Below are positions 109-14,309 of a stretch of DNA of 43,597 bases, piece after piece (the stretch's first letter is position 1; each line of letters opens with the position of its first letter). The notes below the pieces were generated by a model that did not search any database, was not told where the DNA came from, and was given only the letters and a program-made list of their open reading frames with translations. Location of the stretch: positions 1 through 43,597 of the forward strand of contig JAGBDS010000056.1 of the NCBI GenBank assembly GCA_017937405.1. The letters run 5' to 3'. Position numbers and translations under genes: made by a program. Source of the stretch: Oscillibacter sp. GTDB taxonomy: Bacteria; Bacillota; Clostridia; Oscillospirales; Oscillospiraceae.

Positions 109-772
109 ATCGGGTAGGAGGGGGTGACTAACCCCGTCCTCCCACAACACCGTACGTGCCGTTTTCGGCATACGGCGTTTCGGCTGGTTCCGACCTAAGA
201 CGCTTTCCCTTGATATCTGCTCGTCATTTCCGACCTTTACTCTCGGCTTCCAGCCTACCCTCAATCGTTAAATCTCCGTAGAGCAACTGATGTCAACACA
301 GATATCAACTTGTTTCGTCAGCCGTTTCCAACCGTCTACCCCTTCCCTTCCTGGTGATTAACCATTTCTTTGGTACTATGGGTAGAGCTGACTTCTGCAG
401 GTTCAGCCACCGCCTTGCGACGTGGGTTACTCCTGTGGGTATCCTTCGTACCCTCTTGTCGGGAGCATATCCTGCAGACCTCCCCGGGTAAGAGCGATAA
501 CCTTCATCTCGCAGCCGCCTCATCTACTGTATGGGGTTCGGGTAGCATTGGACTTCTTCTTACGCTGCAGAGTCGTCCGCCCCAAGTCAGCCTTATATGA
601 GGTTTCTGTTCGTCGGCCCGAAACTTTGCCCGTGTTGGCACTTCTCAGCCTTCACATCCGGCTTCCTTCAGATCCCACCTCGCGATGGGCACCCTTGCCT
701 TCGGCTAGCGGTTCCTGCTACCGAGTCCGCAGTGGACTTTCACCACCTAGTTATCGCCCATGCCGGGCGCAC
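109..772 (-). mobile_element. Group IIC intron ribozyme lacking a reverse-transcriptase ORF
   Basis: Read on the minus strand, the element starts at 772 with GTGCGCCCGGCATGGGCG and ends at 109 with CTCCTACCCGAT. Internal blocks match what I remember of the Oceanobacillus iheyensis group IIC ribozyme: GCAAGGGTG, ATCTGAAGGAAGC, CTCATATAAGGCT, CTTACCCGGGGAGGTCTG, CAGAAGTCAGC, and domain V as GCCGTATGCC-GAAAA-GGCACGTACGGTG. Domain VI is the hairpin GGGAGGACGGGG...CCCCCTCCTACCC. It is about 664 nt, whereas ORF-bearing members are near 1.9 kb, so domain IV is short and no maturase is present. Short open frames inside it are intron RNA, not genes. It sits directly behind the recN terminator, the typical class C target. 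Confidence 0.9.
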
Positions 773-824: not shown

Positions 825-2507
825 TCAAATGGACTTTCGATACGCCTCAGCTTCGTCCAACAGCTCTCCGGCGCTCTCCAGCAGGGCCTCCGTGACTTTA
901 CTGCCGCCGGTGATGCGAGCCAGTTCCGCCTTTCGCCGTTCCCGGTCCAACAGAATGACCTTTGTATAGGTCCTTCCTCCCTGCTCACCTTTCTCAACAG
1001 AAAAATGGGTGTCCGCCATAGCCGCCAGCTGGGGCAGATGGGTAACACACAGCACCTGCTTGCGGCGGCTGACCTGGGCCAGCTTCTCCGCCACCTTTTG
1101 GGCCGCCCGCCCACTGACGCCGGTATCCACCTCATCAAATACCAGGGTTCCAATGGACTCCTGTTCCGCCAGCACATTTTTCAGCGCCAGCATGATACGG
1201 GCCAACTCACCGCCGGATGCGATCTTTGCGATAGGGCGCAGATCCTCACCCACGTTGGCGGACATGAGGAACCGGATGGTATCGCAACCGTCCAGGGCAG
1301 GCTCTTTCTCCACAAATTCGATGGCAAAGCGTACCTTATTCATATCGAGGTCCCTCAGTTCGCTCTGGATACGCCTCTCCAGAGCCTTTGCCGCCTCCTT
1401 GCGCACGTGGGTCAGCTCAGCACCCGCTGCCAGGGCGGCTTTTTCCGCTTTCTTCAGCTTCTGTTCCAGCAAGATCAAAGTGTCATCCGCTGTCTCAATG
1501 GCGTCCAGCTCGGCCCGGCACTTGTCCAGGTAGGCAAGGCAGTCCTCCACAGTGGCTCCGTACTTCTTTTTCAGCCGGTACAACTGGTCAGAACGGCTCT
1601 CCACCGCGTCCAGCTCCGCGGGGGAAAAGTCAAATTCCGCCCGCTTATCCCGAATGATCTCGGCAAGGTCATAGGCTTCACAGCGCAGTTCTTCCAAGCG
1701 CTTATACAGCCCAGCTAGGTCATCTCCCAGATTGCGGACGGCACTCATGGCCTCCTCCGCCTCCCGAAGCTGACTTACCGCGCCGCCGCGCTCATCGTCT
1801 CCAGAAAGGCAGTAATCGGCCCCGGATAGAGCGCCGATATACTTCTCCCCGTTGCGCAGGATATTCCGGCGGGCTGCCAGATCCTCTTCCTCACCGGGAA
1901 CCAGCTCCGCCCGCTCCAGCTCACCGATCTGGAAACGCAGGCTGTCCACCCGGCGGGCCTTCTCCGCCTCGTCCATTTTCAGTGCCTTGATCTGAACCTT
2001 CAGTTCAGTCATGGTCCCGTATTCCTTTTGATAGGCCACCAGCGTCTTCTCTGTTCTTCCGAAGCGGTCCAGGTAGGCGCCGTGCAGTTCCTCGTCAAGA
2101 AGCTGTTGACCGTCGTGCTGGCCGTGGATATTCAGCAGCTCCCCGCCGATCCTCCGAAGCTGCGCCACGGTGATGGGACGGCCATTGGCACGGCAGGTAT
2201 TTTTACCGTCGCCGCTGATCTCCCGCTGAAGCAGCAGATTCCCGTCCTCGTCCGGAGCCACGCCGGTTTCCTCTAGCCCTGGCAGCCCCGCCGGAACGTG
2301 GGAAAATTCCGCGCTGACAAAGGCCTTTTCAGCCCCGGTGCGGATCAGTTCCCGGGAAGTACGTCCACCAAGCACCGCGCCCATGGCGTCAATAACAATG
2401 GATTTGCCCGCTCCGGTCTCGCCAGTGAGGGCGTTGAATCCGGCGTGGAACTGAATGTCCGCCTCCTCGATGACGGCAATATTCTCAATGTGAAGCAGTT
2501 CCAACAT
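825..2507 (-). CDS. recN: DNA repair protein RecN
   Basis: RecN is an SMC-like ATPase that acts early in double-strand-break repair. The 560-aa product is of normal family length. It begins MLELLHIENIAVIEE, has a Walker A GETGAGKS at residues 29-36, a central coiled coil, the ABC signature SGGELARIMLALK and a Walker B/D-loop region LVFDEVDTGVSG near the C-terminus. I chose the ATG at 2507 because GGGGGAG lies eight bases upstream; the longer frame would begin at a GTG three codons earlier. It follows argR by 22 bases and is the last gene of this operon, ending at the terminator at 778-805. Confidence 0.97.
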   Translation of the reverse strand: MLELLHIENIAVIEEADIQFHAGFNALTGETGAGKSIVIDAMGAVLGGRTSRELIRTGAEKAFVSAEFSHVPAGLPGLEETGVAPDEDGNLLLQREISGDGKNTCRANGRPITVAQLRRIGGELLNIHGQHDGQQLLDEELHGAYLDRFGRTEKTLVAYQKEYGTMTELKVQIKALKMDEAEKARRVDSLRFQIGELERAELVPGEEEDLAARRNILRNGEKYIGALSGADYCLSGDDERGGAVSQLREAEEAMSAVRNLGDDLAGLYKRLEELRCEAYDLAEIIRDKRAEFDFSPAELDAVESRSDQLYRLKKKYGATVEDCLAYLDKCRAELDAIETADDTLILLEQKLKKAEKAALAAGAELTHVRKEAAKALERRIQSELRDLDMNKVRFAIEFVEKEPALDGCDTIRFLMSANVGEDLRPIAKIASGGELARIMLALKNVLAEQESIGTLVFDEVDTGVSGRAAQKVAEKLAQVSRRKQVLCVTHLPQLAAMADTHFSVEKGEQGGRTYTKVILLDRERRKAELARITGGSKVTEALLESAGELLDEAEAYRKSI

Positions 2508-2529
2508 GGGAATCACTCCCCCTTGATGC

Positions 2530-2979
2530 TTAAAGCATTTCTTTAATTTCCTCGCAGAAGGCCGCGGCGGACTCCGTATCCCGCATCAGCAGAAACGCCG
2601 TGTCATCGCCCGCCAGGGAGCCAACCATATAAGTGATGTCCATGTTATCTAACGCGGAGCAGGCTGCGCTGGCAAGTCCCGGCATGGTTTTAAGCACCAC
2701 GATGTTCTGGGCGTAGGCAATGCTGGTAATGCTCTCGCGAAAGATGGTACGCAGCTTCTCAGCAAAGTTCAGCTTCGTCCGGTTGCCGGAGACGGCATAC
2801 TTGTATACACCCTGCCCCACCGGCTCCTTGATCAGGTGCATCTGCTTGATATCCCGGGAAATTGTGGCCTGGGTGCTGGTAATGCCCCGCTCCTGGAGCC
2901 GGGCCAAAAGCTGCTCCTGGGTCTCGATGTTTTCCTGGGAAATGATTTCCAGGATCATGGTTTGGCGGTCATTTTTCAT
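2530..2979 (-). CDS. argR: Arginine repressor ArgR
   Basis: ArgR is the arginine-responsive transcriptional regulator. The 149-aa protein has an N-terminal winged helix-turn-helix (ITSTQATISRDIKQMHLIK) and a C-terminal oligomerisation/arginine-binding domain with the GSLAGDDTAFLL motif. The start is the ATG at 2979, preceded by GGAGG at eight bases. It overlaps the 3' end of nadK by 11 bases, so translation is probably coupled. The nadK-argR-recN order is standard in Firmicutes; control of arginine genes is family knowledge and no ARG box was identified here. Confidence 0.96.
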   Translation of the reverse strand: MKNDRQTMILEIISQENIETQEQLLARLQERGITSTQATISRDIKQMHLIKEPVGQGVYKYAVSGNRTKLNFAEKLRTIFRESITSIAYAQNIVVLKTMPGLASAACSALDNMDITYMVGSLAGDDTAFLLMRDTESAAAFCEEIKEML

Positions 2980-3853
2980 GGTTAAAACCTCCCGGAAGCA
3001 TTTTTTGGGCAAAAATCTCGCAAAAACTCTTTTCAGTCAGGCGCACCAGCTTCATCGCATACTTGCTGCGGCGCACCAGGACCTGATCGTCCGCTTTCAG
3101 CTGAAAGGCGCGGCTCTCATCCACAAACAGATATACCGGCTTGCGGCCATTCCGCTCCAGCTCCACCGTCAGTACATGCTCCGGTGACAGGACATAGGAG
3201 GAAAACCGCATGTTATGGGTGCAGATGGGACAAACCACCATGGTCTGCGCCACAGGCTCCACCACCGGGCCGCCGGCGGACAGGGAATACGCCGTGGAAC
3301 CGGTAGGCGTTGAAATGATAACACCGTCTCCGGCAATATCCGCCAGATGGCGGCCGTCGGAGGAAATTTTCAGATGAATGACATGGGAGATGGGGCCTTC
3401 CCTGATCACAGCGTCATTCAGCCCCAGGTTGGTATAGATCTGCTTGCCGTCCCGGAGCACGGTGACATCCAGCATCATGCGGGACTCCGTTTCAAAATCC
3501 CAATCCTTCAGCTTCCACAAGGTATCCAGCTCTCCGGCTTCAAGCTCCGCGATAAAGCCAAGACCGCCCATGTTGATGCCTAGCACCGGCAGCTTGTTCA
3601 GCGCCGCCAGCTTGGCAAGGTGCAGGATGGTGCCGTCGCCGCCGAAGGTCACCATGAGATCGGCGCCCTTCATCTCCTGGGGCAGCGGGCGCACATCGTA
3701 ATCAGCGAAGGCCCCCTCCTTCTGGTCCTTGAAAGGAGAGCACACCACGGTACGAAAGCCCATTTCCCGGAGAATCTTCTCCGCCGCCTTGGTGGCAGCC
3801 ATCCCCTGGTCCCGGTTGGGATTGGGGCACAGGATGATCTTCTTCTGGTTCAT
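2969..3853 (-). CDS. nadK: NAD kinase
   Basis: This enzyme phosphorylates NAD to NADP in the cytosol. The 294-aa product carries the diacylglycerol-kinase-like signature GGDGTILHLAKL, the GINMGGLGF loop and the glycine-rich TPTGSTAYSLSAGGP motif of the NAD-binding domain. It starts with ATG four bases inside the tlyA stop region (ATGA overlap) and overlaps argR at its own 3' end. The tight packing supports co-transcription with tlyA and argR. Confidence 0.97.
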   Translation of the reverse strand: MNQKKIILCPNPNRDQGMAATKAAEKILREMGFRTVVCSPFKDQKEGAFADYDVRPLPQEMKGADLMVTFGGDGTILHLAKLAALNKLPVLGINMGGLGFIAELEAGELDTLWKLKDWDFETESRMMLDVTVLRDGKQIYTNLGLNDAVIREGPISHVIHLKISSDGRHLADIAGDGVIISTPTGSTAYSLSAGGPVVEPVAQTMVVCPICTHNMRFSSYVLSPEHVLTVELERNGRKPVYLFVDESRAFQLKADDQVLVRRSKYAMKLVRLTEKSFCEIFAQKMLPGGFNHEK

Positions 3854-4671
3854 ACCGCGCCCTCCCCGTGTTCCTTCAGCGTTTGATGGGATTCCTCCAC
3901 CAGCGCCTCCAAATCAAATTCTATAGGCCGCCAATCTCCCTTTTCCAGATAGCCCAAATATTCAATATTTCCCTCAGGTCCACGGATGGGAGAATATGTC
4001 AGGCCAAGGACTGTAAAGTCAGATTCCTTTGCATGTTCAAGGAAGTGCTCCAGCACCTCCAAATGCACCGCGGGATCCCGGACGACGCCCTTTTTACCCA
4101 CCTTTTCCTTGCCGGCCTCAAACTGGGGCTTCACCAGGCAGGCCACATGACCGCCGTCCTTCAAGATGCCGCACACAGCAGGCAAAATCAATTTCAGAGA
4201 GATAAAGCTGACGTCGATGGAGGCGAAATCAAGCTCATCCGGGATTTGCTCATGGGTCAGATACCGGGCGTTGGTCCGCTCCATGCAGACCACTCGGGAA
4301 TCCTCCCGCAGCTTCCAGGCCAGCTGGCCGTAGCCCACATCCACGGCGTAGACCTTTGCCGCGCCGTTTTGCAGCATACAGTCGGTAAAGCCGCCGGTGG
4401 AGGCGCCGATGTCACCGCAAACAGCACCTTCCAAACGTACAGGGAAAGACGCCATGGCTTTTTCCAGCTTCAAACCGCCCCGGCTGACGTATTTCAGGGC
4501 ATTGCCCCGGACTTCAATAGCCGCTTCGTTGGGAACGGCGGTTCCGGGCTTGTCCACCCGCTGACCGTTCACAAACACCAAGCCGCTCATAATGGTGGCC
4601 TGGGCCTTCTGCCGTGTCTCCTGGAGCCCACGCTCCACCAGCAGTACATCCAGCCGTGTTTTATTTGCCAT
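3850..4671 (-). CDS. tlyA: TlyA family S4-domain RNA methyltransferase
   Basis: TlyA-type proteins are SAM-dependent rRNA 2'-O-methyltransferases, historically annotated as hemolysins. The 273-aa protein has an N-terminal S4 RNA-binding domain (RLDVLLVERGLQETRQKAQ) and an FtsJ-like Rossmann fold with the SAM motif GDIGASTGGFTD near residues 88-99, then VDVGYGQLAWKL. It overlaps dxs by 11 bases and nadK by four, so it lies in the same operon. Methylation of 16S/23S rRNA is known for Mycobacterium TlyA and is inferred here. Confidence 0.94.
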   Translation of the reverse strand: MANKTRLDVLLVERGLQETRQKAQATIMSGLVFVNGQRVDKPGTAVPNEAAIEVRGNALKYVSRGGLKLEKAMASFPVRLEGAVCGDIGASTGGFTDCMLQNGAAKVYAVDVGYGQLAWKLREDSRVVCMERTNARYLTHEQIPDELDFASIDVSFISLKLILPAVCGILKDGGHVACLVKPQFEAGKEKVGKKGVVRDPAVHLEVLEHFLEHAKESDFTVLGLTYSPIRGPEGNIEYLGYLEKGDWRPIEFDLEALVEESHQTLKEHGEGAV

Positions 4672-6538: not shown

Positions 6539-7096
6539 TCAGCGGTGAAAAATATGGAGGAACCGCCCGGCCCAGTAGACCACCTTCGTGCTCTGCTTCA
6601 TGGCGAAGGTCTTGCCCAGCGCCTTCCCGCCGATGGTCAATCCGGAGATCAGCGCAGTGACGGCCACGGAGACCAGCACAGACCGCAGGTCCAGCGCCTC
6701 CTGGAGCCGCACTACGATAACGGCGGCAGTGGTGCCGCTGACGATGCCGCAGATGTCGCCCACCACGTCGTTGCAGACGCTGGAGACCTGACTGGCATTC
6801 CGCAAGAGGGTCAGCGCTTCCTTGGCGCCCTTTTCTTTATGGGCTGCCATGGAGTGAAAAGGTCTGGGATCCGCCGCCGTGACGGCCACACCGAGGATGT
6901 CAAACACGATGCCGAGGGCGATAAACGCCCCTAAAATCAAAAGAGCGACGGCTACGCCCGCGCCGCTCAGCATGGATTCCGAGGCCAGGCTCAGCGCAGC
7001 GGACAGAGCCACCGCCAGCAAAAAGACCGTGGTTGCCCAACGGTATTGGGAGGTCTCTTTTTTCTTTTCCGCTTTGGGATTCTTGTTTTTTTTCAA
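6539..7096 (-). CDS. oapA: OLE RNA-associated membrane protein OapA
   Basis: The 185-aa protein has a Lys-rich N-terminus (MKKNKNPKAEKKK) and about four hydrophobic segments (roughly residues 20-40, 44-65, 110-130 and 139-158). The most family-like stretch is FDILGVAVTAADPRPF, with Asp66 and Asp76, followed by CNDVVGDICGIVSGT at 108-121. It starts at a TTG with GGAGG seven bases upstream; no ATG is available. It lies directly behind the long noncoding region called OLE RNA and directly before dxs, the arrangement known for OapA of Bacillus halodurans. OapA binds OLE RNA and holds it at the membrane; that role is family knowledge. The call rests on position, topology and motif together. Confidence 0.87.
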   Translation of the reverse strand: MKKNKNPKAEKKKETSQYRWATTVFLLAVALSAALSLASESMLSGAGVAVALLILGAFIALGIVFDILGVAVTAADPRPFHSMAAHKEKGAKEALTLLRNASQVSSVCNDVVGDICGIVSGTTAAVIVVRLQEALDLRSVLVSVAVTALISGLTIGGKALGKTFAMKQSTKVVYWAGRFLHIFHR

Positions 7097-7133
7097 ATAA
7101 ACGCCTCCAATATGGGGGTAAATATCGATTTTG

Positions 7134-7174
7134 CTAAGCCGGCGGCGACAAAAAAGGTAAATCTTACGGCTTAG
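7134..7174 (-). other. Closing stem at the 3' side of OLE RNA
   Basis: CTAAGCCG (7174-7167 on the minus strand) can pair with CGGCTTAG (7141-7134) around an A/U-rich loop containing CCTTTTTTG. It may be the terminal OLE helix or a stem separating OLE from the oapA ribosome binding site at about 7104-7108. The U-run is in the loop, so this is not a classical terminator, and read-through into oapA and dxs is likely. Confidence 0.45.
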
Positions 7175-7787
7175 GTACGGGTTGGTTTTCCCCGCGGCGC
7201 ACCTCTCGTTGCCGATGGAGGCGGTTCCCCCTTCGGCGCAGCGGCGTGTCGTTGCCCGAACACGCTACCCGATTGCCACTTAGTCCGCACTGCAATCCCT
7301 TTTCTGTCTCGATGGAACAGCCTAGGTGATTTCCACCACAGTCCATCCGCTTCTTTAGCCTCTTTTGCAGCCATGGTTTCAGAGAGCAGGGGGCCTCTCG
7401 CTCCGGCCGGGAGCAAATTCGGCCTGGCCTCTCATTCGCCATACCCACGCAAGGCAGGCTACATCTGCACACAGCGTTACGGCCCCGCAGGACCGATGCA
7501 CCGCATTGCAGGTTCATCATCTGTTTCGTACACAGCTCGGAAATACCACGATGGGAGTACGACTGTGCACAAGAACAGGTCTCCACGGAAACAGGGTCGG
7601 GATAACCATGCCATTGGAAAGCGCCCTGAGTCCGCAAGCGCGCATGGCGCACTTCCCCCCAGCACCCACCCAAAACTGGGCGTATCAAGCAGGCACCAGA
7701 GGTTTCATCGGTGTGCCCTTCAGAGGATTTTTAGGCCCTCCCTAGGAAACGGCAGATCTGACTAGAATACTGCGCCGCCGCTTAGCG
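7134..7787 (-). ncRNA. ole: OLE RNA (ornate, large, extremophilic RNA)
   Basis: The 815-base gap between ispA and oapA has only mutually overlapping open frames on both strands, none with a ribosome binding site or family resemblance. It is GC-rich and full of helices on the minus strand, such as CCCAGTTTTGGG and AAGTGCGC-CAT-GCGCGCTT. A consensus promoter predicts a start near 7787, and a CTAAGCCG / CGGCTTAG pairing at 7134-7174 closes the 3' side, giving roughly 0.62-0.65 kb. OLE RNA is a ~0.6 kb structured RNA of anaerobic and extremophilic Firmicutes that lies between ispA and the oapA-dxs pair, so size, position and partner gene all match. Ends are approximate; I did not check the consensus secondary structure. 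Confidence 0.85.
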
Positions 7788-7793
7788 AGGATT

Positions 7794-7822
7794 AGTATAG
7801 CACAGGAAACATAAATATACAA
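7794..7822 (-). promoter_or_regulatory. Sigma-A promoter with extended -10 for OLE RNA
   Basis: On the minus strand there is a -35 TTGTAT (7822-7817), a 17-base spacer ending TGC, and a -10 TATACT (7799-7794), which makes an extended -10. Start of transcription is predicted near 7787. It lies between the ispA terminator and the OLE region, so OLE-oapA-dxs can be expressed independently of the upstream genes. Confidence 0.8.
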
Positions 7823-7865: not shown

Positions 7866-7897
7866 AAAAAGCCGGAGAGGGCGTTCCCCTCTCCGGC
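7866..7897 (-). terminator. Intrinsic terminator downstream of ispA
   Basis: The stem GCCGGAGAGGG / CCCTCTCCGGC is followed on the minus strand by TTTTT, about 14 bases after the ispA stop. It separates the xse-ispA unit from the OLE promoter. Confidence 0.88.
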
Positions 7898-7911: not shown

Positions 7912-8790
7912 TTATTTATTTCTCTCAGCCAAACTGTCCGCCAGAGTCTGCAGGAAACCATCCGTGTCAAACAGGGCGACCGCAGCCTTGGCCGCTTCGG
8001 TGCAGGCCAGGACCTTTTGGCCGCAGCCCTCGATGCCAAACAGGTCCACATAGGTCACCTTGCCCTCCTCCTTATCGGAGCCGATGGGCTTGCCGAACTC
8101 GTCAGCATTTCCAATGACATCCAGCATATCGTCCCTGATCTGGAATGCCAGACCCAACTGGTAGCCGTATTCCTCCGCGGCGGCCAGCAGTTCTCCGCTA
8201 CCGCCTGCCGCGGCAACGCCCAGCTTGCAGGCTCCCGCGATCATGGCGCCGGTCTTGAGATGATCTACCTCTTTCAGTTCTTTTTCCGTTTTCGGCGCGT
8301 GGAGGGTATCCAGGACCTGCCCCGCCACCATGCCATCGGCGCCGGCGGCCTCCGCCAGGATCAGGGCACAAGATGCCCGCTTCTCCGGGACAAGACCGGG
8401 AGCGGTCAGAATGAGGCGAAACGCCTCCGGCTGGAGGGCGTCGCCCGCCAGGACAGCCATGGTCTCGCCGAAAACCTTGTGGTTGGTGGGCTTTCCCCGG
8501 CGCAGATCATCGTCGTCCATACAGGGCAGGTCATCGTGGATCAGCGAATAGGTATGCACCAGCTCCAAGGCGCAGGCCACGGGGACAGCCTTTTCCCAGT
8601 CCATTCCGGCGAGGCACGCAAACTCCAGCGTCAACACCGGGCGGATGCGCTTTCCGCCCGCCAGCAGGCTGTATCGCATGGACTCATATAAGTCCGCCCA
8701 ATGGGGCTTGTCCACAAACAGGCCACCTAAATATTCTTCCACCGCCTGACGGTACATATCGTATCGGGCGTCAAATTCGCGCTTCTCCAT
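7912..8790 (-). CDS. ispA: Polyprenyl (farnesyl/geranylgeranyl) diphosphate synthase
   Basis: This trans-prenyltransferase adds isopentenyl diphosphate to allylic diphosphates to make farnesyl or geranylgeranyl diphosphate. The 292-aa product has the first Asp-rich motif HDDLPCMDDDDLRRG and the second, IRDDMLDVIG, both Mg2+-diphosphate sites, with the GGKRIRP IPP-binding motif near residue 50. Chain length cannot be fixed by eye. The ATG lies five bases after the xseB stop with GAGGAGC between. It completes the MEP-to-prenyl line with dxs downstream. Confidence 0.94.
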   Translation of the reverse strand: MEKREFDARYDMYRQAVEEYLGGLFVDKPHWADLYESMRYSLLAGGKRIRPVLTLEFACLAGMDWEKAVPVACALELVHTYSLIHDDLPCMDDDDLRRGKPTNHKVFGETMAVLAGDALQPEAFRLILTAPGLVPEKRASCALILAEAAGADGMVAGQVLDTLHAPKTEKELKEVDHLKTGAMIAGACKLGVAAAGGSGELLAAAEEYGYQLGLAFQIRDDMLDVIGNADEFGKPIGSDKEEGKVTYVDLFGIEGCGQKVLACTEAAKAAVALFDTDGFLQTLADSLAERNK

Positions 8791-11290: not shown

Positions 11291-11854
11291 CTAATTTGCC
11301 GCCATGATTTTAATATCAGATACCGACAACCCGGTTTCCGACACGGCAATATCCGTGATCTTTGCCACGTCCTCCTCGGTCAGCTCACCGCTGTCGGTGG
11401 ACACCACCACGCTGATGCCATCATCCCCCATGAAAGCCACACATTCCTTGTAGCCTTTAGCGGTGACCAGGTTCTCCACCTGAGCTTCTTTCATGGTATA
11501 AGATGCCAGCACCTGGATGCCCTGACTGGCCTCATTGATGACGGACTGGTCGGCATTCTCCTGCTCAGCCGCCTCCTGAAGCAAACTGATGGCGTTGTCC
11601 CTGGCCTGCTGCCGGGTCAGCCGGGCGGATGCAAAGTAGTCCGAGCCGGTATAAACCTCCGTCTCGTCCACGGTTTCCGCCGCGCCTTCTTCCTGACCGG
11701 AGACCAGGGTGGCCTCGCCCAGAATCTTCGTTCCAGTCTCCTCCGCGCCCTTTACAGCCTCCTGGCCGGAGAATTTCCAGTTCAGCGCCACCGCCGCGCA
11801 CACCAGCACCGCCATGGTGGCTACCACCGTGTTCCGCTTCCACTTCGCGTTCAT
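11291..11854 (-). CDS. spoIIIAH: Stage III sporulation protein AH
   Basis: SpoIIIAH sits in the mother-cell membrane and pairs with forespore SpoIIQ to form the feeding-tube channel. The 187-aa protein has one N-terminal transmembrane helix (TVVATMAVLVCAAVALNW), an acidic linker and a C-terminal YscJ/FliF-like ring domain with ARLTRQQARDNAISLLQ. The ATG at 11854 follows GGAGGAAGAAC. It is the last gene of the spoIIIA operon, 20 bases after spoIIIAG. Confidence 0.95.
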   Translation of the reverse strand: MNAKWKRNTVVATMAVLVCAAVALNWKFSGQEAVKGAEETGTKILGEATLVSGQEEGAAETVDETEVYTGSDYFASARLTRQQARDNAISLLQEAAEQENADQSVINEASQGIQVLASYTMKEAQVENLVTAKGYKECVAFMGDDGISVVVSTDSGELTEEDVAKITDIAVSETGLSVSDIKIMAAN

Positions 11855-11874
11855 GTTCTTCCTCCTCCAAACGA

Positions 11875-12384
11875 TCACTGCCATTTTGCCACTGTGATGC
11901 GGTCTGCGCTCAGTCCGGTGAGAGACGACACTGCCTCCGTCACCGCCAGCCGGACGTCCGCCCGGTCTCCGCCCTGGCAGACCACCAGGGCTCCCCGGTA
12001 CGTCGGATACAATGTCCGGGTCACCACTGTCCCGTCTCCCTCGCCATCCGTCAAAACGGTCTCGGACCTGCGTGAATAGTCCTCCGGCGACTCGGCGCTG
12101 CCGCTGTACGTCAGTTCGGTGTCCTGGGCCAGCTGCCGTTCGCCGTCGGAATCCACCGTCAGCATCACCTTCACCTGCCCCACTCCGCTCATGGTGCCAA
12201 GAATATCCTCCATCTCTTCCTGAATGTCCCGCACTTCCTCTGTGCCGCTCTGCTGCCGCAAGGTCTTCTCCGTACCGCCGTTCCCACTCGGCCATAACAG
12301 CAGCCCTGCGCCGATCAGCGCCACCATCGCCGCGTATTTGTACCTGTCCCATAGCTTTCGCACTCCTTCAGTTTTTCCTTTCAT
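11875..12384 (-). CDS. spoIIIAG: Stage III sporulation protein AG
   Basis: SpoIIIAG forms a large ring of the sporulation channel. The 169-aa protein has a single N-terminal membrane segment (YAAMVALIGAGLLLWPSG) followed by a ring-building domain with VGQVKVMLTVDSDGER and the C-terminal ALVVCQGGDRADVRLAVTEA. It overlaps the spoIIIAF 3' end by 17 bases. Confidence 0.94.
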   Translation of the reverse strand: MKGKTEGVRKLWDRYKYAAMVALIGAGLLLWPSGNGGTEKTLRQQSGTEEVRDIQEEMEDILGTMSGVGQVKVMLTVDSDGERQLAQDTELTYSGSAESPEDYSRRSETVLTDGEGDGTVVTRTLYPTYRGALVVCQGGDRADVRLAVTEAVSSLTGLSADRITVAKWQ

Positions 12385-12847
12385 GCCAAACCTGCCTCTC
12401 CGCCGGGATGCCCAGCTCCCGGGTCATGAAGTCCGCCAGTTCCCGGGAGTAAGGCCCTGTAAGCTCCACTTTCTCCGGCAGGCTGACGCCGTCCGGCCCT
12501 GTTGTCGCCTCCACCCGGACCGCCACCTTCAGTCCCAGGGCGTCCGCTTTGTCCGATATATATGCGGCTGTCCGCTCCTCTATACGTTCCGTCAGCTCCG
12601 TTTCACGGGAGGAAGCCAGCTCCTCCCGGGCGTTCTTGAGCTCTTGTTCGTATCCCCCCAAGTCCAGCTGCAGCCGCTCCAGATCCGTTCCCAGCACCGG
12701 CCGCATCAGCACTGCCAGCAGGATAAGTCCTCCCACAAAGGAGGCCACCCGGCGGATGCTCCCCTCCGGCACTAAGGTCTGGACCACGGACAACAGCAGC
12801 GTCACCACCACGATGGAGGTGAGCCATTCCCGCAGCGCCCCGATCAT
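12368..12847 (-). CDS. spoIIIAF: Stage III sporulation protein AF
   Basis: A membrane protein of the SpoIIIA complex. The 159-aa product has two N-terminal transmembrane helices (WLTSIVVVTLLLSVVQTLV and VASFVGGLILLAVLMRPVL), a coiled-coil stretch rich in Glu and Arg, and a small C-terminal domain ending GIPAERQVWHERKN. It overlaps spoIIIAE by four bases and spoIIIAG by 17. Confidence 0.93.
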   Translation of the reverse strand: MIGALREWLTSIVVVTLLLSVVQTLVPEGSIRRVASFVGGLILLAVLMRPVLGTDLERLQLDLGGYEQELKNAREELASSRETELTERIEERTAAYISDKADALGLKVAVRVEATTGPDGVSLPEKVELTGPYSRELADFMTRELGIPAERQVWHERKN

Positions 12848-13923
12848 GGCACCACCGCCGCTACGGAGGACAGTATGGAGACCAACAGCAGCACCGCGCA
12901 GCTCCCCGTCATACCCAATACTAGTCCGAAAGCACCGCCCAAACCATCAATCAGCTTACACAGTCCAGGCGCCCCCACCGCCGCCGCCAGAAAAGCCGTC
13001 AGCTTGTATAGAAGATATTGAATACCAAGCTGCAAAAAGGGGTAAGCACAGGCCGCCAGGATCGCCAGCATCCCAAACACGCCGATGGTGTTTTTCAGCA
13101 TCCCCGCTCCCGCCAACACCGTTTCCGACACCTCGGCGATGATACTTCCCACCACCGGCACCACGCTGGACACGGTAGCTTTGGCCACTTTTACCGTGGC
13201 GCCGTCGACGGAGCCGGAGATGATCCGGGCGACGGACAGATACACGGTAAAGGCCAGCAAAGCCGTGGTCAGCAGCCATGTTACCACTTTTTTCAGTCCA
13301 TCCGCCAGGGCCGACAGGCGCCCCTCCGGCAGACAGGATGACGCAGTGAGGACGCCGATATAGAGGTATACCATGGGCATCAGCAGGCCGTTGATCAGGT
13401 TGATCAGCAGGTCCACCAGAAACACGGTGGTCACCTGCTGGAACGCGGCGGTGCTCACCTGTCCCGAGGCCGCCATGGCTGCCGCCAGAGTAGGCAGCAG
13501 GGCCTTGGAGAAAGTGTCCAGCTCGCCGATTGTCTCCGCCCCCAACCCGATGAGACTATCCAGGCTCCCAGCGGTCAGGAGCGTCACGGACAGCGCCCCC
13601 GCCATGGGCAGAAACAGTGCTGTCTTTCCCCCCTCCGCCCCTGCACGAAAACCCTCCACCACACCGCAGAGAATGACCACCAGCAGAATGGACGCCGCCC
13701 CCCGCACCCGCTGGTGCAGAATGGTCCCGATCTGACCGCTCACCTTTTCCAGCAGGGACGCGATACCGCCGCTAAATCCCTCCGTGCCGGAGAAGTCCTC
13801 GCCCCGCAGCAGTTCTTCCGCCCGCTCCGGCATGGCCCGGGTCAGGTCCTTGGGCAAGTCTGAAGCCTGAGCGCCCATGGTCATGACCACCAGCGCCGCC
13901 AGCAAACAAAGCAGTTGTTTCAT
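12844..13923 (-). CDS. spoIIIAE: Stage III sporulation protein AE
   Basis: A polytopic membrane component of the SpoIIIA secretion-like complex. The 359-aa protein starts with a probable signal/transmembrane segment (LLCLLAALVVMTMGAQA), has a ~45-residue extracytoplasmic part, and then about seven to eight hydrophobic helices. I chose the ATG at 13923, which overlaps the spoIIIAD stop; the longer frame is low-complexity and shadowed by spoIIIAD. Confidence 0.94.
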   Translation of the reverse strand: MKQLLCLLAALVVMTMGAQASDLPKDLTRAMPERAEELLRGEDFSGTEGFSGGIASLLEKVSGQIGTILHQRVRGAASILLVVILCGVVEGFRAGAEGGKTALFLPMAGALSVTLLTAGSLDSLIGLGAETIGELDTFSKALLPTLAAAMAASGQVSTAAFQQVTTVFLVDLLINLINGLLMPMVYLYIGVLTASSCLPEGRLSALADGLKKVVTWLLTTALLAFTVYLSVARIISGSVDGATVKVAKATVSSVVPVVGSIIAEVSETVLAGAGMLKNTIGVFGMLAILAACAYPFLQLGIQYLLYKLTAFLAAAVGAPGLCKLIDGLGGAFGLVLGMTGSCAVLLLVSILSSVAAVVP

Positions 13924-14309
13924 CCCATCAGCTCCATCAGCAGCTCCAGCACCGCCCGCAGCAGGGGCATGGCGGCAAGGAGGGCACACACCGCTCCCGC
14001 CGTCTCCACCACCGATGCTAGAGCCGCGCCTCCCGCGTCCCGGCACAGATTGCCGCCCACCTTTACCACCAGGCCGATGCCCACTGTTTTATACAAAGGA
14101 ATGAACAGCGTCTCCGAGACGCCGCTCCGCTCACCCAGTTCACGCAAAAACGCTGTCAATTCTCCCAGCCCGTCCGCCAGGAGCGCCAGCCCCGCGACAG
14201 CGGCGCACAGCACCAGCAGCAAGGCCTGCTCCGGGCTGGTCTTTTTCAGTACCAGGGCCAGGATAGCCCCTACGACGCACAGCGCCGTTACCCGTGACGT
14301 CAACTCCAT
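13920..14309 (-). CDS. spoIIIAD: Stage III sporulation protein AD
   Basis: A small polytopic membrane protein of the SpoIIIA complex, 129 aa from the ATG at 14309. It is nearly all hydrophobic, with helices around ALCVVGAILALVL, ALLLVLCAAVAGLALLAD and a C-terminal pair, and includes FIPLYKTVGIGLVVKVGGNLCRDAG, the family core (written here only to locate it near residues 68-92). A TTG two codons upstream overlaps the spoIIIAC stop and could be the start instead. Confidence 0.92.
   Translation of the reverse strand: MELTSRVTALCVVGAILALVLKKTSPEQALLLVLCAAVAGLALLADGLGELTAFLRELGERSGVSETLFIPLYKTVGIGLVVKVGGNLCRDAGGAALASVVETAGAVCALLAAMPLLRAVLELLMELMG

Follow-up and report, generated by a model that had tools for sequence, protein, structure and literature searches.

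Among structured bacterial RNAs with an unknown biochemical task, OLE RNA is one of the largest. It has been described in Halalkalibacterium halodurans, Clostridium acetobutylicum, and C. botulinum. The accessible text of a survey by Fernando and Breaker (PMC11332333) counts 2,822 OLE hits in Bacillota, names two gut clades, and reports OapC, one of the protein partners, in about 45% of OLE species. Published work disagrees on the kink turn assigned to OapC, which is described as U84 C85, a 3-nt bulge, and G-A pairs: one of its strands is J5/6, not J6/7, in PMC9723947, and J6/7 in a cryo-EM model (PMC12286853). Lyon and Breaker proposed helix P3 as a membrane-crossing stem (PMC12265935). For clades in which OapB and OapC are scarce, Fernando and Breaker suggested partner loss as the background of the variant OLEs found there (PMC11332333).

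Here, we analyze a stretch of 43,597 nucleotides (hereafter, ‘the window’) from a draft genome of Oscillibacter sp. that comprises 2.44 Mb and is 89% complete. Between ispA and a gene for a 185-residue membrane protein lies a gap for which a preliminary description, made from the DNA letters, had proposed an OLE RNA. The length it gave, 815 bases, was verified, and the covariance model it called for (Rfam RF01071) matches the minus strand from 7794 to 7126 with 387.2 bits (E = 2.1e-110; gathering cut-off 50), spanning model positions 1–616 of 616 and filling the whole gap. The score falls just under the 390 bits used by Fernando and Breaker to mark a ‘full-length’ OLE with a model of their own (PMC11332333). 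The dense pairing proposed for the gap was recovered as well: the RNA folds at −265.4 kcal/mol (z = −2.4), and none of 20 shuffles folds as well. The likely transcript would run from ~7787 to ~7141, about 0.65 kb. We observe a member of the OLE RNA class with a conserved fold, a conserved −10 box, and the partner gene, and a complete ole-oapA locus is the best explanation of the region as a whole, with a probability of roughly 97%. The window OLE is a fresh member of a known RNA class: an unremarkable discovery in itself, and a useful lead on OapC and P3. The only other Rfam matches over cut-off in the window are three group II intron pieces (109–689, minus strand), directly downstream of recN.

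Two other accounts of the gap were weighed. It could code for a protein, since a 174-residue frame (7164–7688) is on the right strand and intact in 2 of 70 relatives. However, this frame has zero Pfam or NCBIfam matches up to E = 1, it is frameshifted and/or stopped in the other 68 aligned relatives, and the OLE model accounts for the whole gap, which leaves a coding role a next to negligible probability. The preliminary description had seen no credible reading frame here and had held that conservation of this one would speak against an RNA; no such conservation was found. Alternatively, the window OLE could be a decayed relic that no longer works: its score is well below the phylum best of 583, and its Rfam alignment contains several non-standard pairs and a few missing bases. 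Against decay, most model helices pair, the −10 box, L4, L9.3, and kink-turn bulge are all kept, oapA is open and retains its conserved residues, and OLEs of the same genus have similar scores. A relic is therefore very improbable, and the lower score is probably due to lineage inserts in a complete locus, the features of which are collected in Table 1.

Table 1. Features of the ole-oapA locus and its flanks in window coordinates; the last three rows give positions within loci of other genomes.
Feature	Position	Strand	Remarks
recN	825-2516	-	beyond argR
argR (presumably; named from its own sequence)	2530-3012	-	
NAD kinase (nadK)	2969-3853	-	between tlyA and argR
oapA	6539-7096	-	185 aa, TTG start, GGAGG 7 nt upstream; PF01595 (CNNM), 30.6 bits
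OLE RNA gene (ole)	7126-7794	-	extent of the RF01071 covariance-model match
L9.3 palindrome GGCC	7405-7408	-	published dimer kissing loop
Extra J6/7 hairpin, AAGUGCGC-CAU-GCGCGCUU	7636-7654	-	18-nt insert relative to the Rfam consensus
Putative OapC kink-turn strand in J4a/5, CC-GAU-GA	7705-7711	-	motif; assignment following PMC9723947
P4 with dimer loop L4, CUAAAAAU	7722-7741	-	loop identical in 136/138
P3 5' arm	7742-7761	-	3' arm about 7338-7358
P2 5' arm, palindrome CUAG	7762-7772	-	3' arm 7318-7325; 99-100% paired
P1 5' arm	7773-7779	-	3' arm 7141-7147; 97% of cells paired (87% shuffled)
Likely ole promoter, TTGTAT-17-TATACT, extended -10	7794-7822	-	read by eye
Terminator-like hairpin after ispA	7871-7897	-	11 pairs, 9 G-C, T-rich tail
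ispA	7912-8790	-	upstream flank of ole
MpfA-type gene, locus L126 (G043; also L041)	2752-4014		
MpfA-type gene, locus L127 (G013)	2787-4016		
MpfA-type gene, locus L056	1822-3051		

The host belongs to the Oscillospiraceae and is of Oscillibacter type, near O. valericigenes An890. Among the best 80 of 517 related loci, the nearest OapA relatives come from an uncultured Clostridia metagenome-assembled genome (L031, 97% identity) and O. valericigenes An890 (89%) and An860 (87%); over 7164–7688, the OLEs of L031 and An890 are 99.2% and 98.9% identical to that of the window. OLE occurs in 74 of 99 genomes, that of the window among them: 54/61 of the same genus and 20/38 of the order's other families. 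It also occurs in 289 of 398 phylum-wide genomes representing 184 of 266 genera, and neither search gave a match in 14 controls. OLE is thus no speciality of extremophiles, since 289 of the 398 sampled Bacillota species carry it, and ‘extremophilic’ is a misnomer for this RNA. The preliminary description inferred that a probably gut-living clostridium uses OLE too; the locus is present, but the claim was overstated, as OLE in gut bacteria was already published (PMC11332333).

Compared with the OLEs of H. halodurans, C. acetobutylicum, and C. botulinum, that of the window shares the full model length, the conserved core, the dimer loops, the P3 geometry, and the downstream-adjoining oapA. Unlike them, it has an extra J6/7 hairpin, longer P7 and P8, an ispA set off by a terminator-like hairpin, and a gut-type anaerobe as host. 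The gut hosts are shared with OLE variants 1 and 2 of the TANB77 and RF39 clades, which, according to the accessible text of PMC11332333, shorten or lose P7 and P8 (and, in variant 1, also P9). In contrast to these variants, the window OLE has P7 and P8, and its lineage has both longer than in the phylum-wide set (lineage medians of 65 and 46 nt vs. 47 and 29 nt) and enlarges J6/7.

The gene order ispA-OLE-oapA-dxs-tlyA-argR-recN given in the preliminary description needs a correction, as it omits nadK between tlyA and the presumed argR. Genes for SpoIIIAH and SpoIIIAE are found close to ole (11291–14046). Sporulation genes have been reported among ole neighbours (PMC11332333). A single polycistronic RNA is reported for the cluster in H. 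halodurans (PMC12265935), where ole also has a promoter of its own (PMC9723947). In the window, an extended −10 box, TGC-TATACT (7802–7794), was read by eye together with a weak −35-like TTGTAT (7822–7817) at a spacing of 17. A TGnTATAAT/TATACT box with at most one mismatch stands shortly before the 5' motif of OLE in 104 of 133 OLE loci, compared with 11 of 138 shuffled stretches. A promoter is thus likely, as proposed earlier; a promoter consensus scan did not list TTGTAT-17-TATACT, the TTGTAT of which matches the −35 consensus at only three of six positions. The scan listed instead minus-strand sites at 7940–7911 and 7848–7821, against a chance expectation of 0.8. Of 65 relatives, 39 have a terminator-like hairpin 5' of OLE (seven when shuffled). 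The hairpin after ispA and the conserved −10 box together suggest transcription of ole from a start of its own in this organism.

Across 138 unique OLE sequences, 88% of 24,165 base-pair cells hold standard pairs, compared with 75% after shuffling, a figure that includes P3 rows in a wrong register, and double changes occur in 134 of 180 pairs. P1 shows double changes in six of seven pairs; P2 has little covariation support because it hardly varies. Both dimer contact loops, L4 and the GGCC of L9.3, are present in the window. L9.3 reads GGCC in 129 of the 138 sequences and AGCU in three, the palindrome switch reported by Kretsch et al. (PMC12286853). The helices of domain 2, where the OapB-binding P12.2/P13 would lie, are present as well.

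P3 combines variable sequence with an almost fixed length. Of 198 OLE RNAs, 12 failed the anchors used for measurement; in the remaining 186, the 5' arm measures 24 nt from anchor to anchor in 157 RNAs, 23 nt in 27, and 25 nt in two, and it has 129 different sequences. The 3' arm is 19–22 nt long, and duplex folding gives 12–16 pairs in 133 of 138. A register of P3 set manually gave 70% paired cells vs. 69% shuffled and was rejected, duplex folding having found another, so the P3 rows of the 138-sequence pair table are unusable. The lengths of P7 and P8 vary widely (standard deviations of 23% and 28% of the mean). P3 is not alone in having a fixed length, since P5-P6 is also nearly constant in the phylum-wide set, at 88–91 nt. 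The constant arm fits a rod of set length, without proving a membrane role.

The gene following ole encodes OapA, as first proposed: its product matches the CNNM family above the cut-off of 28.4 bits and carries a DxxxD motif. Its four hydrophobic windows (residues 19–43, 37–77, 111–129, and 135–158) are compatible with four membrane helices, in keeping with the topology described before. Among 44 aligned OapA rows, of which one is a 3-residue fragment, 43 keep N109, D110, G113, D114, K158, and K162. D110 and D114, two aspartates four apart, fit D100/D104 of the published PM1 mutant (PMC9723947). Of 44 OLE loci, 14 of them from the order's other families and 30 from phylum-wide genomes, 43 have an OapA homologue no more than 1.5 kb away. 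Two of the seven same-genus genomes apparently without OLE (G002, G021) have oapA at a contig edge, preceded by the 3' end of OLE.

The CNNM signal is common to OapA and the magnesium exporters MpfA, CorC, and CorB. These combine CNNM with CBS, whereas OapA consists of the CNNM part alone and has an RNA partner in print. In other families of the order, strong CNNM genes of the MpfA type (138 bits or more) occur in 16 of 18 OLE-less genomes and in one of 20 OLE-bearing ones, which repeats the published anticorrelation of OLE and MpfA (PMC11332333). Within the genus, the anticorrelation is weak, an MpfA-type gene being present in 13 of 54 OLE-bearing genomes. In two genomes, G043 and G013, such a gene lies between ispA and ole, divergent from ole; this arrangement accounts for three of 67 loci with both oapA and ispA matches, one of the two genomes being represented twice. 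Locus L056 has an MpfA-type gene in the equal place and direction upstream of ole-oapA, without an ispA match.

Two further genomes have unusual loci. In G088 (locus L134, G088:C5:180500-185484), an OLE of 784 nt is followed by a reading frame that continues to the contig end and looks, by eye, reverse transcriptase-like; the CNNM-type match of this genome is on another contig. The same-genus genome G008, 95% complete, has neither OLE nor either kind of CNNM match, keeps YbxF/OapC near rpsL, and possibly represents a complete loss of ole-oapA.

Published work allows the working of the locus to be sketched. The RNA would start near 7787 and be cut free or end near 7141, folding into domain 1 (P3–P9) and domain 2. 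Two copies would pair via L4 and the GGCC of L9.3, and OapA, a relative of CNNM/MpfA magnesium transporters, would hold OLE at the membrane. OapC (YbxF) would bind the kink turn formed by J4a/5 and J6/7, and the particle would most likely tune OapA-linked divalent-metal flux and other stress responses.

J4a/5 of the window carries CC-GAU-GA, a putative OapC-type kink-turn motif. The OapC profile, however, has no match in this genome, from which rpsL is missing as well; one weak L7Ae-family match lies in a 245-aa frame. The nearest isolates, An890 (G007) and An860 (G059), both have an OapC-profile match. Since the kink turn is intact and the closest isolates have the gene, OapC is expected in the window organism, but the assembly lacks the genomic position where it normally lies. 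Of 51 rpsL loci, 42 have YbxF/OapC no more than 1.5 kb from rpsL, one of the nine misses (L229) being truncated, and the sequences of the complete genome G037 read rpoC-ybxF-rpsL. In a search toward OapB, infA was not found in the genome of the window, and no map-infA interval was seen by eye in three stretches totalling 59 kb of G037.

The extra hairpin belongs to a lengthened J6/7. This stretch measures 59 nt in the window and 56–157 nt in 88 loci of the Oscillibacter set (same genus, or found by OapA likeness). By comparison, 88 of the 89 phylum-wide OLEs have 40–42 nt, and the remaining one (L315) is an anchor slip. Among 56 different hairpin segments, good alignment was confined to the base of the stem, the second pair of which is A-U in 28 and G-C in 25. 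In this first set, J6/7 exceeds 66 nt in six of nine OapC-less genomes, counting the truncated L229, and in none of the 40 OapC-bearing genomes measured. Whole-genome searches of 11 long-J6/7 genomes found three without an L7Ae-family match and eight with a second L7Ae type only, with matches from profile position 2–7, which also occurs in OapC-bearing genomes. A form of J4a/5, CUGUGAA, was considered as a sign of OapC loss and rejected, YbxF being present at rpsL in 19 of the 24 such genomes in which the rpsL locus was read; this form or the related CUAUGAA occurs in 34 of 138 sequences.

The relation was followed in 299 family genomes at least 93% complete, from 64 genera, of which 106 genomes in 21 genera carry OLE. 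A profile of 16 OapC sequences gave 176 matches in the 299; seven of them, at around E = 1e-4 to 1e-3 and all from genomes without OLE, were set aside. J6/7 was measured in 102 of the 106 OLEs, leaving out three OapC-bearing genomes in which it could not be measured this way (G649, G623, and G656) and the genome of the window, which has no OapC match, the usual bulge, and a short J6/7; by the earlier measure, J6/7 of G623 is 62 nt, within the usual range. By the family measure, a longer J6/7 (at least 38 nt; 43 nt in the window) is found in 69 of 102 and a short form of 25 nt in 33. With OapC present (n = 57), J6/7 is 25–48 nt long and the kink-turn bulge is GAU, GGU, or UGU in all. With OapC not found (n = 45), J6/7 reaches 54–205 nt in 15, the bulge differs in 24, and either holds in 33, while 12 have both the usual bulge and a short J6/7. 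Hence, J6/7 above 50 nt occurs in 15/45 vs. 0/57, and another bulge in 24/45 vs. 0/57. On re-measurement, J6/7 was 25 nt in G592 and 55 nt in both G621 and G687. The J6/7 threshold was fixed on the first set and reused here, with 16 same-genus genomes in both sets and probably several more. Absence of OapC was judged on draft genomes, and the single absences in g323, g325, and g314 may be assembly gaps.

Raw Fisher p values, which ignore kinship, are 1e-6, 3e-11, and 4e-17. The tree contains 11 changes in OapC and nine in J6/7 length. A tree-aware test retains only two to three pairs that are both independent and informative, each of which goes the predicted way (p = 0.25–0.5), and a crude estimate from branch lengths gives p = 0.08, deep reconstruction being ambiguous. 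The cleanest cases, with OapC-bearing sisters, are G003/G009/G788/G775 beside G029 and G697/G569/G678 beside G636. Because few cases are independent on the tree, the J6/7-OapC association, drawn from comparison of genomes, is suggestive. We found no description of this pattern in the passages of open PMC text that were read.

One reading of the pattern is that both kink-turn strands are constrained by the binding of OapC, with J6/7, rather than J5/6, as one of them. Going further, the Oscillospiraceae OLE particle could contain an exchangeable slot: OapC would shape the J4a/5-J6/7 kink turn, and after its loss the RNA would rebuild this corner by an altered bulge and growth of J6/7 to 54–205 nt, the arm possibly replacing the protein. 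We regard this proposal as tentative and, on balance, unlikely. Absence of OapC alone would not lead to J6/7 growth, given that OapC is reported in about 45% of OLE species (as noted above) and that J6/7 remains at 40–42 nt across almost the entire phylum-wide set. It is also conceivable that OLE of this genus works without OapC and that the OapC link is a habit of Bacillus, as the lack of an OapC match in 45 of the 102 measured family genomes would allow. We consider this distinctly doubtful, since the 57 OapC-bearing genomes all keep bulge and J6/7 length within limits that are exceeded only among the 45 without OapC, as expected if OapC binds there.

For P3, a fixed arm is what a membrane-crossing rod would require. 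With the J6/7-OapC pattern, the disagreement in print over J5/6 or J6/7 as kink-turn strand becomes a testable evolutionary prediction, and the cultured Oscillibacter with the locus, An890 and An860, offer gut organisms in which the role of OLE can be tested beyond alkaliphiles. If the exchangeable-slot proposal were true, an RNA would have reclaimed a job from a protein, and would have done so repeatedly, in several lineages.
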